A DNA stretch of 21,135 nt. Source: a virus. Shown piece after piece: positions 4,425 to 16,596 of the stretch (positions within the stretch are counted from its first letter, which is position 1; the number at the start of each line of letters is the position of its first letter). The notes beneath the pieces were generated by a model, which did no database searches, was not told where the DNA came from, and worked only from the letters and a program-made list of their open reading frames with translations. The translations under genes and the position numbers were made by a program. The DNA lies in the IMG/VR virus record IMGVR_UViG_3300040808_001620, positions 1 to 21,135 of that record; one strand, 5' to 3'.

Positions 4425-4838
4425 TTACTTCTTCCTCCCGGCACAATGTGCTTTTTGGCTAAATCCTTTTGGATTGGAGCAGTTGATACTTCTTTTGTAT
4501 TTTTCTGACCATTTTTCGTTTACTGATTCTTCTAGTTGTCTGCCGCCCATCTTCTGTATTGCGTTTTCTACGTACAGTGCAAGCTCAAAATCTAGTTCTG
4601 TTAGGCCTTTAACATCGTGTGTAGTAATAGCTATAGTTACTTCATTGTAAAAGTTCATGAAATCTGCAAAGTGATCTAATTTAATCTGTGGCTTTTCGAG
4701 GAACATTAAAAAGCGTAGCACAGTATTATAATCATCTAGAGCAATTTTTTTGTATAGATAAGTGCCCTTTCTAATTTCCCAATTAGGAAGGAACTTTTTT
4801 CTAATCTGTTCTGCTTGCTCTATATCTAGTTTTTTCAT
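4425..4838 (-). CDS. pterin-4a-carbinolamine dehydratase-fold protein with virion-type two-Cys tail
   Basis: 137 residues. Residues about 8-97 match the pterin-4a-carbinolamine dehydratase (PCD/DCoH) pattern: an N-terminal part ending in the TYLYKKIAL strand, then FYNEVTIAITTHDVKGLTELDF, which parallels the family's YN-V-x-L-x-THD-x-x-GLT-x-x-D core. H74 and D75 of THD are kept. The family's DHHP is here D55-H56-F57-A58, so one catalytic His and the Pro are missing. Residues 115-137 form a basic tail with C120 and C132 (NCSNPKGFSQKAHCAGRKK), a tail type I recall on several T4-like marine phage proteins. Impaired dehydratase activity and a structural or binding role are inferred. The start ATG overlaps a TGA in ATGA, where the TGA ends the -1-frame tail of the upstream gene. 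Confidence 0.75.
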   Translation of the reverse strand: MKKLDIEQAEQIRKKFLPNWEIRKGTYLYKKIALDDYNTVLRFLMFLEKPQIKLDHFADFMNFYNEVTIAITTHDVKGLTELDFELALYVENAIQKMGGRQLEESVNEKWSEKYKRSINCSNPKGFSQKAHCAGRKK

Positions 4839-4948
4839 TTTTTCTTTGCTAGTTTAGTTGCTGTTGCATACATTACTGCTTCTGCATCTTTGCCATAACG
4901 ATCTTTGAAATCGCCTTTGGCTTTTTTCATACCTTTAACTATCTTTTC
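4835..4948 (-). CDS. -1-frame C-terminal extension of the Cys-rich protein
   Basis: Open in the -1 frame relative to the 5592-4939 gene. From 4948 it adds 37 codons to TGA at 4837-4835 and includes FKDRYGKDAEAVMYATATK near its end. That type of basic end (RYG-x-x-A-x-x-VMYATATK) is one I recall at the C-terminus of many T4-like marine phage proteins. An ATG at 4930 could start a separate 31-residue peptide, but no clear ribosome site precedes it. The stop overlaps the next gene's start as ATGA, the usual junction here, whereas the zero-frame stop leaves a 100-nt gap. A frameshift fusion of 252 residues is therefore favoured. Confidence 0.7.
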   Translation of the reverse strand, partial: EKIVKGMKKAKGDFKDRYGKDAEAVMYATATKLAKKK

Positions 4949-5592
4949 TTTTTTTTTACTTCGCCTGTGCTAAGTGTGCGTTCTGCTAGACGTGCATGTA
5001 GGCTAGACTTATATTCGTCTTTTTTGCTTTCTGCATGCATTGCTGCCATATGCTTTTTATACTTCTTAGTACCTTTTTTATGTGGGCTTTTGCCTTCCTG
5101 CACAGCATTACAGTTGCAGTGTTTGCAAGTTGGCGGACATGTGCAGTCTTCTGCTTTAACATCACTACCACAGCACTTGTCTGAGCAATGTGTGTCTCTT
5201 GCTTCTGTAACTTCTTCGCTAAACTTCTGATCATAATCCATTGTATGATATACACTGCCCATGTAATCAGCTGCTTTAGTAATTTTTGATTGCATCCAGC
5301 CTTCGATACCTTCTGCTTCGCTTACACCTTTTAGCATGTCATGTAGCTTGATAGCATACTTTGCGATTTTATACAAATCAGCACGAGCCATTTGCACTTC
5401 ATGATCACGTTCTGCGATATCAGCAAGTTCGCCTAAGCCTTCCTTTACTTTATCTTTCATATCTGTTCCTCGTTTTTTCTTTGTAGTATCAAGTTCTTTT
5501 TTATCTTTTTTAGGTTCGTCTTTATCAGGCCGTAAGGCTGACAACTTATTATAGTTCTTATAACCGTGTTTAAGACTTTTTATGACTCCCAT
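4939..5592 (-). CDS. Cys-rich virion-type protein, zero-frame product
   Basis: 217 residues in the zero frame from ATG at 5592, with AGGAG at 5603-5599. The N-terminus is strongly basic (residues 1-45). Residues about 46-122 form a helical domain (ELADIAERDHEVQMARADLY and onward, KITKAADYMGSVY), a segment I recall from proteins of T4-like marine phages, probably capsid-associated, with no assigned function. Residues 136-161 hold eight cysteines (136, 140, 141, 150, 152, 156, 159, 161), which could bind metal such as zinc. The rest is Lys/His-rich. The zero frame stops at TAG (4941-4939), two codons after an A AAA AAG slippery heptamer. A -1 shift would give a 252-residue form. Confidence 0.85.
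   Translation of the reverse strand: MGVIKSLKHGYKNYNKLSALRPDKDEPKKDKKELDTTKKKRGTDMKDKVKEGLGELADIAERDHEVQMARADLYKIAKYAIKLHDMLKGVSEAEGIEGWMQSKITKAADYMGSVYHTMDYDQKFSEEVTEARDTHCSDKCCGSDVKAEDCTCPPTCKHCNCNAVQEGKSPHKKGTKKYKKHMAAMHAESKKDEYKSSLHARLAERTLSTGEVKKKKR
4948..4954 (-). promoter_or_regulatory. candidate programmed -1 frameshift site (A AAA AAG)
   Basis: The minus strand has nine A then G (4957-4948), giving A AAA AAG in the correct register: GTA AAA AAA AAG AAA AGA TAG. This is the classic bacterial -1 slippery heptamer, as in dnaX. Slipping moves ribosomes into an open frame with a conserved-looking tail. The TAG two codons downstream may help pausing. I see no strong downstream hairpin. 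A one-base error in the homopolymer would give the same picture. Confidence 0.6.
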
Positions 5593-7142: not shown

Positions 7143-7913
7143 TCATATGCCCATCTTTTCAGCCATAGCATCTAGTGTTCTTGCATCAACATGCATAAAA
7201 CGTCTTGCTGCATTGGCGGCACTAATAGATTCGTCTTTCATCATCTTCAGTGCCATTAGATACTCTTGTTTATAAACCTTAGAACTAATAATCTTCTTTA
7301 GATCACTAATAGGCGATCCTTCTTCAACTGGTTCTGCAACACCCATACCTTTGCGTACAGCGTTAAACATTGTTTTAGCAAGTTTAGGATCAGGCACGCC
7401 TTTTGCAAAAGACTCTAGTTCGCCCTGTGCTGCTAATGCTCGCATTTTACTTGCACTCATGCCGCTTACATCGTCTGCGTCTGGATCACGTTCGCCTGCA
7501 CTAACAACTTTTAGTGTATCAAACTTGAAAGGTACTTTTCCGCTCTTGTCAGGTTGACCGTTGTACTTGTCAAACATGGCTTGGAAGCCATCGACTCTGT
7601 CACTACCAGCAATAAACACAACATCAGTATATCCTAAACTCTGTAGCATTTCTAATGCCTGTACAGGTGTGCGTACACTCTGATGTCCTACATTAACACT
7701 TGGAAAAAACTGCTTTGCAAACTTTAATTTAGTTGCGAAGTCTAGCGGATCTGTTTTAGGCTTTTGTGTTTGACTTAAGAATAGATAATGATCACCGTCT
7801 ATGCTAGTTAGCTTGTCTACTAGTTTGGCATGACCAACAGTTGGTGGATTAAGTCTACCAAATGCTAGTACTGCTTGTTTTTTCGGTGCTTCAAATAATT
7901 CTCTTAAAAACAT
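7143..7913 (-). CDS. cytidylyltransferase-like nucleotidyltransferase with CTS-like N-terminus
   Basis: 256 residues. After MFLRELFEAPKK, whose L-F-E|A looks like a prohead-protease site, a Rossmann-type nucleotidyltransferase domain begins. It has strand AVLAFGRLNPPTVGHAKLV with TVGH at 25-28 (the (H/T)xGH signature). FIAGSDRVDGF follows at about 100-110, and GMSASKMR at 151-158 corresponds to the ISSTxxR motif. Enzymes of this fold move a nucleotidyl group onto phosphorylated alcohols or mononucleotides; the substrate cannot be told. Residues about 205-256 form an extra helical domain. AAGGAT precedes the ATG. A packaged enzyme acting early in infection is inferred from the N-terminus and neighbours. 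Confidence 0.85.
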   Translation of the reverse strand: MFLRELFEAPKKQAVLAFGRLNPPTVGHAKLVDKLTSIDGDHYLFLSQTQKPKTDPLDFATKLKFAKQFFPSVNVGHQSVRTPVQALEMLQSLGYTDVVFIAGSDRVDGFQAMFDKYNGQPDKSGKVPFKFDTLKVVSAGERDPDADDVSGMSASKMRALAAQGELESFAKGVPDPKLAKTMFNAVRKGMGVAEPVEEGSPISDLKKIISSKVYKQEYLMALKMMKDESISAANAARRFMHVDARTLDAMAEKMGI

Positions 7914-10267: not shown

Positions 10268-10942
10268 TTATTTATCAGTTTTTGGACTGTAAACAATTTT
10301 ATCCACACGTTGGATGTTGCCACCTACAATAAGGTTTACTAGATTAAGTACCTTTTCGTCACGAACGTAAAAGTATAGGCCTTTGGTATAACCATTGTTT
10401 TGTATTTCGTTATATGTGACTGGACCTATTCTTACTTTATCAGGGTTGCTGTCTACCCAATTAGTAAAATTACTAGCAGTCTTTTTCCCTAGTGTAATCT
10501 TATATTGCATAGTTGTAGGTTGATGTACTACAATCGTATTTGCTTCTAGAAGATTTATGTTACTAGAATCAGGCTCCCAAAATTCTACTATATTTTTTAC
10601 TTTAGTAGACAGTCTTTTCAACCAATTGAGGTTATTAGAGTAGACTTGTATCCGCGGATGTTCCACTCTAAGTTTCATATCATTAAAATTTGTAAACTCG
10701 TGGAACAATATTTGTGCCTGCTGAAACTCAGACTTTTCTATCCACTCACTGCGTAATCCTCTAGTGAAAGTAAGTTGTTCTTCTCCACTTTCAAGTTGGC
10801 TCTGCAACTTATCTAAGTTTTGTTTAGCCCATGCATAGTTCTTTTCACGAAAGAGGTGCGAAAGCTGATTGCGAACAACCAGCTTATATGCATATTCATT
10901 GTAGAATAATTTTGTTGTTTCAAACTTCAACAAGTACGGCAT
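10268..10942 (-). CDS. unknown protein overlapping the end of clpA
   Basis: 224 residues from ATG at 10942 (MPYLLKFETTKLFYNEYAYK); an in-frame ATG at 10990 would overlap clpA by 71 nt, against 23 nt here. No membrane segment. An N-terminal helical part (HLFREKNYAWAKQNLDKLQS) is followed by mixed alpha/beta sequence (MKLRVEHPRIQVYSNNLNWL, GLYFYVRDEKVLNLV). I recall proteins with a similar opening in T4-like marine phages, of unknown function. The overlap with clpA implies coupled translation and perhaps a related role. AAGAGG directly abuts the ATG, which is too close for a normal ribosome site. Confidence 0.7.
   Translation of the reverse strand: MPYLLKFETTKLFYNEYAYKLVVRNQLSHLFREKNYAWAKQNLDKLQSQLESGEEQLTFTRGLRSEWIEKSEFQQAQILFHEFTNFNDMKLRVEHPRIQVYSNNLNWLKRLSTKVKNIVEFWEPDSSNINLLEANTIVVHQPTTMQYKITLGKKTASNFTNWVDSNPDKVRIGPVTYNEIQNNGYTKGLYFYVRDEKVLNLVNLIVGGNIQRVDKIVYSPKTDK
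10269..10276 (-). promoter_or_regulatory. late-type promoter motif GATAAATA
   Basis: GATAAATA fits NATAAATA. It overlaps the last codons and stop of the 10942-10268 gene and ends 5 nt before ATG 10263, so a transcript from it would begin about at the ATG and be leaderless. Confidence 0.4.
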
Positions 10943-13166
10943 CCTCTTCACACTGTAAATGCAATTGATTATCTTCTGCATTATAATCAATATTTAGTAT
11001 GCCGCCGTTTTTAAGTTTTCCAAACAGTAATTCTCTAGAAAGCTCTTTCTTGATTTCGTTATCAATTACACGTTGCAAAGGACGAGCACCCATTTTAGGA
11101 TTAAAGCCTTTGTCTACCAAGTAGTCAAGTGCTTCGTCTGATACATTAACAACAATGCCTTTGTCTTTGACCATTTCTCTAAGCTCATGCAAGAACTTAC
11201 CAACAATTTTAAGCATAACTGGCTTGCCAAGTTTAGCAAATGTAATTGTTGCATCTAGTCTGTTGCGGAATTCTGGAGCAAAATACTTTTTAAGAGCTTT
11301 ATCTTCATACTCGTTTTCCATTTCGTCGTTAAAGCCAATTGTATTTTTCTCTGCATCTGCTGCACCTAGGTTAGTTGTTAGGATTAGCACACAGTTACGT
11401 GCATCTGCTTCCTTACCGTTAGATCCAGTAACAATACCATTGTCCATAAGTTGTAGTAAGATTTGACTTACATCTGGGTGTGCCTTTTCAATCTCATCTA
11501 ACAACAATACACAGTTAGGATGTTCTTGTAATTTAGTAATCAGCTGTCCCGCTGAGTCTTCGTAACCAACATAGCCTGGAGGTGAACCAATAAGTTTAGC
11601 TACACTGTGACGTTCTTGATATTCACTCATGTCAAAACGTATTAGTTCTGATCCTAGCTCAAGTGCTAGTTGTTTAGCAGTCTCAGTTTTACCTGTGCCT
11701 GTTGGACCCATAAACACAAAGCTGCCAATTGGACGATTGTCTGGTTTTAGACCTGCTTGTGCAACTAAGATTTTATCAACTAGAGCTGTAATTGCTTCGT
11801 CTTGTCCATAAACTTTTGCTTTAAGGTTCTTTTCAAGATTAGCAAGACCTTCTGTTTCTGTTTGTGCAACAGTTTCGACAGGAATCTTAACCATTTTGCT
11901 TAATTCAAACTCAATCTCAGCTTCACCAACAACTTTATCTTCAGTTTGTCCTTTAAGATTAAAGCGACTACATGCTACATCAATCAAGTCAATTGCTTTG
12001 TCAGGCAACTTTTTATCATTTTGATATTTTACACTGAGCTTTACTGCTGCCTCGATTGCTTGTTCTGTAATTTGTGTGGAATGAAAATCTTCATAATACT
12101 TTTTAATACCACGCAAAATGTCTTTTGTTAGTTCTGGTGTAGGCTCGTCAACAGTTACACGCTGGAATCGACGCATAAGAGCACGATCTTTTTCAAAGTA
12201 CTTGCGATATTCTTCCCATGTAGTTGAAGCAACAACTTTTAGATTGCCTTTAGTTAGTGCAGGCTTTAACATATTAGCAAGATCGTTTGATTTATCACTG
12301 CCGCCAGCGCCAGCACCATTCATCATGTGTGCTTCGTCAATAAACATCACAGTCTTGCCTTTGCGTTCTAGTCCTTTAAGAACAAGTTTCAAACGTTCTT
12401 CAAAGTCGCCACGATACTTTGAACCTGCAAGCATTGCACCAATATCTAGATTGTATACTTCATACTCTTTTAAGAATTCTGGCACATTATCATTTACAAT
12501 ATTATATGCAAGTCCTTCTGCAATAGCAGTTTTACCGACACCTGGATCACCTACTAGGAGTACGTTATTTTTACTTCGCCGTCCTAGTGCTAGTGCAATA
12601 CTATCTAGCTCTTCTGAACGTCCGATGATAGGATCAATTTTGCGTTTACTAGCAAGACGGTTTAAGTTAACAGTAAATGCATTAAGCGCACGGTTCATTG
12701 CTCCTGAGAGTTCTTCATCTTCGTATTCTGCTGTTACGCCGTCGTCGAGATAAGAAACAAAACTTTCTTTAGCTACGCCTGCTTTTTCTAGCCAATAGTT
12801 ACTAATGCTCTTCTTTTCACTGAGCATACTAATAAGAACATCAGATAATTCGATATGATTTCGTCCTGAAAATAATACCTGTGTAAAGGCACGATTAAGA
12901 ACACGTTCTACTGATTGAGTCTTTTTAGGTTTATAAGTTGGTTCGTCTATAACAATTTCTTCGCAACCGGTTTTAAGATGATTTTCTAAATTAGACTTGA
13001 CAAATTTAGGGTCAACACCATAACCTTCCATAAGTGTTTCAAATTTTTCTTCGCACAGCATAGCAAACAGCAGATGTTCTACTGTAACATATTCGTGATT
13101 AAGTTTGCGAGCGTCTTTGATTGATTTTTCAAAGACTAGTTTTAGGTCTTCGCTAGGTTCTACCAT
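10920..13166 (-). CDS. clpA: ClpA-like double AAA+ unfoldase
   Basis: 748 residues, close to E. coli ClpA (758). The N-domain covers about 1-140. The first AAA+ module has Walker A GDPGVGKT (206-213) and Walker B VMFIDEAH (D277, E278). The second has GPTGTGKT (487-494), pore loop GYVG (531-534), VLLLDEIEK (D557, E558) and the PEFRNRLD sensor region. NTIGFN carries IGF at 610-612, matching the IGF/IGL loop with which ClpA/ClpX dock onto ClpP. No ClpP gene is in the window, so pairing with host ClpP is inferred. It has its own promoter overlapping the end of dnaJ. GGAG lies about 12-15 nt before the ATG. Confidence 0.95.
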   Translation of the reverse strand: MVEPSEDLKLVFEKSIKDARKLNHEYVTVEHLLFAMLCEEKFETLMEGYGVDPKFVKSNLENHLKTGCEEIVIDEPTYKPKKTQSVERVLNRAFTQVLFSGRNHIELSDVLISMLSEKKSISNYWLEKAGVAKESFVSYLDDGVTAEYEDEELSGAMNRALNAFTVNLNRLASKRKIDPIIGRSEELDSIALALGRRSKNNVLLVGDPGVGKTAIAEGLAYNIVNDNVPEFLKEYEVYNLDIGAMLAGSKYRGDFEERLKLVLKGLERKGKTVMFIDEAHMMNGAGAGGSDKSNDLANMLKPALTKGNLKVVASTTWEEYRKYFEKDRALMRRFQRVTVDEPTPELTKDILRGIKKYYEDFHSTQITEQAIEAAVKLSVKYQNDKKLPDKAIDLIDVACSRFNLKGQTEDKVVGEAEIEFELSKMVKIPVETVAQTETEGLANLEKNLKAKVYGQDEAITALVDKILVAQAGLKPDNRPIGSFVFMGPTGTGKTETAKQLALELGSELIRFDMSEYQERHSVAKLIGSPPGYVGYEDSAGQLITKLQEHPNCVLLLDEIEKAHPDVSQILLQLMDNGIVTGSNGKEADARNCVLILTTNLGAADAEKNTIGFNDEMENEYEDKALKKYFAPEFRNRLDATITFAKLGKPVMLKIVGKFLHELREMVKDKGIVVNVSDEALDYLVDKGFNPKMGARPLQRVIDNEIKKELSRELLFGKLKNGGILNIDYNAEDNQLHLQCEEDAVLVEV

Positions 13167-15717: not shown

Positions 15718-16596
15718 TTAGTCTCCTAGTAGTTTACCAAGTGTAGCTGGTCCTGCAATACCGTCTGCTGTTAGACCGTTTGCTGCCTGCCACTCTTTTA
15801 ACGCACGTTCTGTGCCTGGACCAAATGCGCCATCTGCACCGATACCTAGTGCTTCTTGCATCATTTTAACACCTTCGCCACGTGAGCCTTTGCGTAGTAC
15901 ACCGATATCGTCGATATCTATATCACCGTCGTCACCATCGTCTGTACCTAGGTCATCTGCATCCATGCCTAGCACCTGTAGTGCATGTTTATAACGCTTC
16001 TGACGATCTTCTAGTCCAATGTTGCCACCGTTGATCTTTTTAGTCATTTTTACAACATCATCTGTGTCTGCAATGTCGTTTAGATTGTTTGCGTCCCAGA
16101 ACCAGCAAGCTGATTCAATAGCACCTGCTGGAGTAGCTACATATTCTGCTGCTTCTTCTGCTGTCATATCTACACTCTTACCAAAGCGTGTATAGTTGTC
16201 ACGTCCTGTTAATTGCTTTAGACCACGACCGCGGAATCTCCAACCATCACCTTCTTCAGTGTTGCCCATTTTGTATTTACGGAACTCGTCGTTGTAAACA
16301 CGATTAGCAATCATTTCTGGGTTACGTGCATATTCATCTGCGTCTGCTTTTGGTGGCTCGCCAAAGTAACGTCCAAATACTGAACGAAGTGCTTTTGCTG
16401 AATAGTTTAGATTTTCTTCTAGGCGTTTAAAACCGCCTGATTCGTGGGCGCACTGGCTTAAGAAGTGTGCTACACGGCGTTCTGTTGTAATACCATACTT
16501 TGGTAGTAGTTCGCATAGTGCGTCATACCAATCATCTGCATCAGCGGAGATAATCTCGGCAAGATGGTCTTTAGTAAAGTCAAATTCAAAGCTCAT
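15718..16596 (-). CDS. GH19 endolysin with C-terminal peptidoglycan-binding domain
   Basis: 292 residues. A chitinase-19/lysozyme-type catalytic domain spans about 10-205: RVAHFLSQCAHESGGFKRLE holds the likely catalytic E52 and the second acid near E60/E61, NLNYSA follows, and FRGRGLKQLTGRDNY is the family's substrate-cleft motif. Residues about 232-290 are a PG_binding_1 repeat (VLRKGSRGEGVKMMQEALGI, DGAFGPGTERALKEWQ, GLTADGIAGPATLGKL). The two are joined by a very Asp-rich linker (212-230). There is no signal peptide, so holin-dependent release is expected. It is the first gene of the lysis block, with AAGGA before ATG 16596. It cuts host peptidoglycan glycan strands. Confidence 0.95.
   Translation of the reverse strand: MSFEFDFTKDHLAEIISADADDWYDALCELLPKYGITTERRVAHFLSQCAHESGGFKRLEENLNYSAKALRSVFGRYFGEPPKADADEYARNPEMIANRVYNDEFRKYKMGNTEEGDGWRFRGRGLKQLTGRDNYTRFGKSVDMTAEEAAEYVATPAGAIESACWFWDANNLNDIADTDDVVKMTKKINGGNIGLEDRQKRYKHALQVLGMDADDLGTDDGDDGDIDIDDIGVLRKGSRGEGVKMMQEALGIGADGAFGPGTERALKEWQAANGLTADGIAGPATLGKLLGD

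Follow-up and report, generated by a model that had tools for sequence, protein, structure and literature searches.

Does the gene at positions 4939..5592 of this window make one protein or two? The window is the whole of a 21,135-base IMG/VR virus record, and on its minus strand the zero-frame end of the gene reads GTA AAA AAA AAG AAA AGA TAG. A slip back by one base on the run of A's would carry decoding past the TAG into a second open frame. The features concerned are the following.

4939..5592, minus strand: zero-frame open reading frame of the short form, 217 aa, a Cys-rich modular phage protein ending in AERTLSTGEVKKKKR before the stop; 245 relatives in IMG/VR
4949..4957, minus strand: slip site, a run of nine A's (A9) and then G; A9 is kept in six lineages
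4954-4948, minus strand: heptamer A AAA AAG in exact -1 register, by direct reading
4939..4941, minus strand: zero-frame stop TAG, two codons past the AAG, by direct reading
4948..4983, minus strand: first half of a module of about 49 aa, ERTLSTGEVKKK, in the zero frame; aligns without gaps with in-frame modules (ERSLTKGEEnKKEK...)
4835..4948, minus strand: second half of the module, read in -1 as 37 codons (EKIVKGMKKAKGDFKDRYGKDAEAVMYATATKLAKKK) plus a TGA; backed by about 100 distinct module instances and an excess of changes at third positions
4892..4921, minus strand: weak predicted stem (z about -2.5), 27 nt past the A run, a distance atypically far for a stimulator
4425..4838, minus strand: next gene, a pterin-4a-carbinolamine dehydratase (PCD; PF01329, E 5.8e-17)

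The slip site and its two predicted products

A reading of the DNA made from the letters alone (the sequence-only reading) had placed A AAA AAG, within nine A's and a G, in the -1 register two codons before the TAG, with a -1 frame then open for 37 codons. Both statements are correct, as is the overlap, as ATGA, between the tail TGA (4837-4835) and the next gene's ATG. The gap of 100 nt that it gave after the zero-frame stop is also right. Its remark that this gap is unlike the other junctions holds only in part, the other gaps lying mostly between -71 and +80 nt, with one of 312 nt.

The heptamer follows the X XXY YYZ pattern of -1 frameshift sites and stands just before the zero-frame stop, here and in the other A9 lineages of this gene. 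The run also has the length, about nine or more A/T, at which transcriptional slippage occurs, and it is the sole A/T run of at least eight in the window. Upstream of the site we looked for a Shine-Dalgarno-like stimulator, an optional trait of this class of frameshift, and found none. Structure prediction 3' of the site established no convincing stimulatory hairpin; the mean z of the stem is -1.8 in the A9 members of this gene vs -0.8 in other module instances, and the stem is not specific. Pfam and PHROG profiles gave no match to the window's protein and lend no support to the virion-type role given to it by the sequence-only reading; the fixed ratio of forms in the virion, which that reading thought possible, is likewise a conjecture. 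The same profiles annotate other genes of the window:

7143-7913, minus strand: cytidyltransferase family
10920-13166, minus strand: ClpA-like ATP-dependent protease chaperone
15718-16596, minus strand: endolysin with a peptidoglycan-binding domain

Judged from the sequences compared below, this gene very probably has two protein products. Most decoding would end at the TAG and yield the 217-aa short form. At A9/A AAA AAG, a sizeable fraction would slip back one base and read the 37 codons, giving a long form with the complete helical module (ERTLSTGEVKKK joined to EKIVKGMKKAKGDFKDRYGKDAEAVMYATATKLAKKK).

A tail module split in some relatives and whole in others

The module occurs in about 100 distinct instances in IMG/VR contigs, joined to many different proteins, with the consensus ER[ST]L[TS]KxEExKKEKxVKGMKKxKxDFKxRYGxDAExVMYATATKxAKK. 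Once the shift is applied, the window product aligns gap-free with modules read in frame, and about 100 other instances, close relatives of the window's gene among them, are read in a single frame. In a first scan of 98 instances, breaks inside the module were found only in members of the window's gene, each at an A9 site.

The alignment of homologues, to which the sequence-only reading had looked for A AAA AAG, came out in favor of its frameshift. A9 with the tail in the -1 frame is present in six divergent lineages (window/L004, L005, L014, L037-L040, L052 and L258), which comprise at least nine separately assembled contigs; others encode the tail in frame. Independent assemblies of the same virus concur on A9 in two cases (the window and L004; L037-L040). 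In a further member, L259, the A9 lies slightly upstream and the shift is likewise -1. In-frame fusions without a slip site, which that reading would have taken as evidence against it, do exist: L035, L083 and L104 carry the whole module of the same gene in one frame, without A9. They count for the tail and not against it, as they indicate that the tail is a genuine part of the protein; only members with a slip site lack an in-frame tail. The proposal of two forms, with and without the tail, thus has strong comparative support from the six A9 lineages, the in-frame relatives and the counts of A runs given below.

The two states can lie close together. For instance, L041 and L091 resemble the gene of L037, and a one-base difference ahead of the run puts their module in frame. 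To account for the slip state on a tree of the shared domain, at least four changes are required along well-supported branches.

Among the six slip lineages, most changes in the tail hit third positions when its codons are read in -1; by this sequence comparison, purifying selection acts on the tail in that frame. The residues that precede its methionine (EKYVKG) are conserved as well. The tail stop abuts the next ATG in 6/6 lineages (ATGA, TAATG or TAATATG). The sequence past the tail differs in four of the six, so the frameshift is not tied to the PCD gene, to which the sequence-only reading would have it feed ribosomes.

A Pfam/PHROG search with the tail retrieved only a family of unknown function, and a PDB sequence search with the module gave no match. 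In an AlphaFold model of the in-frame relative L035 the module forms two helices, at low confidence (pTM 0.32). Perhaps the tail serves in docking or targeting of a minority of copies.

The phages that carry the window's gene are an uncultured, mostly marine group. A GTDB search retrieved three relatives, all of which lack a usable slip site, and the A9 arrangement of these gene families did not turn up in the cultured-phage collection that we searched. A tblastn search of cultured phages with P0001, family D (described below) and the fused proteins gave a short family D core as its sole match. In the open-licence literature we found no earlier report of these sites.

Nine A's in other gene families and across contigs

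The same device recurs in three further gene families, which we call B, C and D. In family B (L101, L117, L096, L137 and others) the module stands behind an A9 -1 site, AAA AAA AAA GAC TAG. Family C (L257, L094 and copies of it), which in its N-terminal part shows kinship with the window's protein, also has the module behind an A9 -1 site. One family C contig has ten A's (A10) and the module in frame (L172, 5558), while L094 (6913, plus strand) and several other contigs have A9 and need -1, with otherwise identical flanks; the length of the run therefore varies in nature or in the assemblies.

Family D (L281-L359 and L394) matches PHROG 14154, 'virion structural protein', and weakly matches Atu_ph07 gp044, which is annotated as a virion structural protein. 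Its gene ends in TCA AAA AAA AAG TAA or the like, with a C-terminal domain of about 110 residues in the -1 frame. Counting clusters at 90% identity as lineages, 37 of 44 combine 8-10 consecutive A's with a -1 domain of 100 codons or more, and in all 37 the zero-frame stop comes soon after the run. Members with A10 still require -1. The remaining seven clusters have neither an A run nor a long -1 frame, and in several of them a match to the domain lies a little downstream in a different frame, as a gene of its own. The family D core was matched in Agrobacterium phage Atu_ph07 and Xanthomonas phage XaC1, neither of which has the A9 arrangement: in XaC1 the core and the domain are two genes with an ATG each, and in Atu_ph07 they form one long frame.

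Two kinds of conservation surround the family D site. Just before AAA AAA, the fourfold-degenerate position holds an A in 36/36 (log10 P -10.3 on the assumption of independent lineages, a value that ignores kinship, as the independence of lineages from one family is incomplete). In most lineages a hairpin starts about 5-9 nt 3' of the site (mean z -3.4 vs +0.2 for control stretches). Among 26 gap-free members, 7 of its 11 pairs show two-sided compensatory changes vs 2.6 in shuffles, and the signal is lost when the partner is slid by 1-3 columns.

Two other A9 sites were seen, in L375 (G006, 11692-11700, minus strand) and L381 (G007, 97792-97800, minus strand). At each a long open reading frame ends soon past the run, and the -1 frame stays open for about 110 and 50 codons, respectively.

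We counted homopolymer runs across 1.97 Mb of contigs. Sense-strand A9 runs comprise 13 with a -1 break, none with a +1 break and 12 read through; the corresponding counts are 1, 2 and 32 for A8 and 0, 1 and 1 for T9. Beside the module, each of the 48 runs of six, seven or eight A's whose upstream frame could be scored is in frame, and A9 runs need -1 in 20 cases, are in frame in 10 and never need +1. In the ten in-frame cases it is the -1 frame that closes early, after 1-3 codons, and slipping would there yield a short form. These cases are the mirror layout and would also give two forms.

The 275-kb relative that holds L014 (G001, L395-L408) has only two A9 runs, the site in the window's gene and the family D site, vs about 11-14 expected under low-order Markov models and 5.5 at order 5; several longer runs are expected as well. 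Its A/T runs of at least eight are strongly depleted (6 of length 8 vs about 25-38 expected). Slightly more likely than not, A9 is a reserved recoding signal in these large phages. It would be avoided elsewhere and kept or regained at protein-module junctions and before the family D C-terminal domain, so as to add the module to a fixed share of copies of each protein. The layout would be one of two mirror forms (short by default and long upon a shift, or long by default and short upon a shift).

The same genome encodes an alphaproteobacteria-type permuted tmRNA (L404, 10771-11171, minus strand; Rfam RF01849, 127.8 bits) and ten tRNAs. The type of tmRNA suggests an alphaproteobacterial host. 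Many of its proteins share a similar short N-terminus (MKIRDLLEG, MKINEI or MLLREFF; L405 and L399), a sequence likeness that might mark a targeting peptide.

Ribosomal shift, transcriptional slippage and other explanations

Programmed -1 recoding that yields a short and a long form is, on the comparative evidence, a confident reading of the window's gene, with a ribosomal shift as the favored mechanism. The shift would proceed by tandem slippage of tRNA-Lys on AAA AAG. In E. coli, an A9 cassette gives about 40% of -1 product, and the efficiency of poly-A sites grows with run length, from 10% at 7 As to 40% at 9 and 63% at 11 (PMC3711429); by that cassette, about 40% would be expected here.

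The chief rival, not considered by the sequence-only reading, is that RNA polymerase adds an extra A at A9 in a fraction of transcripts and so brings the tail into frame with no shift by the ribosome. Bacterial RNA polymerase does slip efficiently at nine A's, as in Thermus dnaX (PMC5009743). This account would fit the switch from in-frame to shifted genes only at nine A's, the conservation at degenerate sites of A's upstream of the minimal heptamer, and the different registers of the run among gene families. The published trend in efficiency favors A9 too, without telling the two mechanisms apart. Two observations oppose it: no site needs +1, and the covarying hairpin of family D lies 3' of the site, in a stretch that the polymerase has yet to transcribe. 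Since this hairpin sits at the position of a stimulator and cannot act on a polymerase that is not yet there, family D is best read as ribosomal. It is in family D, and only there, that covariation supports a ribosomal shift. For the window's gene, which belongs to the same phage group, a ribosomal mechanism is favored over a transcriptional one by analogy, and we consider slippage of the polymerase rather unlikely.

Errors of sequencing or assembly would have turned true A10 runs into A9, the genes being ordinary in-frame fusions. All breaks are indeed of the type expected from one lost A, and the A10 of L172 is in frame at a place where L094 and its relatives have A9. The same errors should also have left A8 runs with -1 breaks, and just 1 of 35 classifiable A8 runs has one. 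Independent assemblies agree on A9 (the window and L004; L037-L040), and family D is as hard to reconcile with error: the stop is close to the run in 37/37 lineages, the covarying hairpin adjoins it in most, and members with A10 need -1 as well. We hold error to be very improbable.

No better placed is phase variation, by which replication slippage would switch the run from A9, without the tail, to A10, with it, and back within a population. It could draw on the A9/A10 difference between L094-type contigs and L172, on close relatives in and out of frame (such as L037 vs L041) and on the repeated changes of slip state on the tree. Against it, the window's gene has A9 and is out of frame in every slip-lineage contig found, family D is out of frame in each lineage with a run, whatever its length, and the conserved 3' hairpin is left unexplained.

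Least probable of all is a frameshift mutation that arose recently and left the tail to decay, or a separate tail made by reinitiation or an internal start: there is an ATG within the tail (KGM) and an early -1-frame ATG in 10 of the 37 family D lineages, but purifying selection acts on the tail in -1, EKYVKG is conserved before the Met, the first 15 -1-frame codons hold no ATG in 27/37 family D lineages, and relatives with separate genes have no A run. Judging from these sequence patterns, random homopolymer or base-calling error, decay and reinitiation do not explain what is found.

Known systems and what the recoding would mean

Among tailed phages, the best-known cases of frameshifting are those of tail chaperones and of a small number of capsid genes. 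In T7, a -1 shift in capsid gene 10A/10B extends the product at its C-terminus to give a minor capsid protein. The present genes are alike in extending a fraction of the copies of a phage protein by a -1 shift near the C-terminus; they differ in the slip site and the protein, and in that several unrelated genes use the device, three of them with the same tail module. Lambda-like tail assembly chaperones (gpG/gpGT) also have a conserved -1 shift in phage late genes, but with other slip sites, and the phages here are large and of another group; we found no homology to a tail chaperone. In slip sequence the nearest systems are the dnaX genes of E. coli (a ribosomal shift on A AAA AAG) and Thermus (transcriptional slippage at A9), which are of the same class and likewise draw two products from one gene. 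The dnaX layout, with a long zero frame and a short -1 frame, is mirrored by the in-frame A9 members. In the window's gene, by contrast, the -1 product is the long form, there is no upstream Shine-Dalgarno stimulator, the genes are those of phages, and the appended module is common to many proteins. The GeneTack survey described poly-A clusters with A_AAA_AAG and A_AAA_AAA sites whose efficiency rises with run length, as would apply here, although its scope was complete prokaryotic genomes (PMC3711429).

If the reading is right, the long form would give peptides across the shift or from the tail, such as TLSTGEVKKKEK and DAEAVMYATATK. A single recoding signal would then serve four or more gene families in uncultured phages. 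One of these is similar to a virion structural protein and keeps the signal over 37 lineages, and three append the same module, presumably to only a fraction of copies. Recurrence across genes together with avoidance elsewhere makes this more interesting than a single site. Several proteins are accordingly predicted to have two forms, which standard gene calling overlooks, and how the copy number of such parts is set would become accessible to direct tests.
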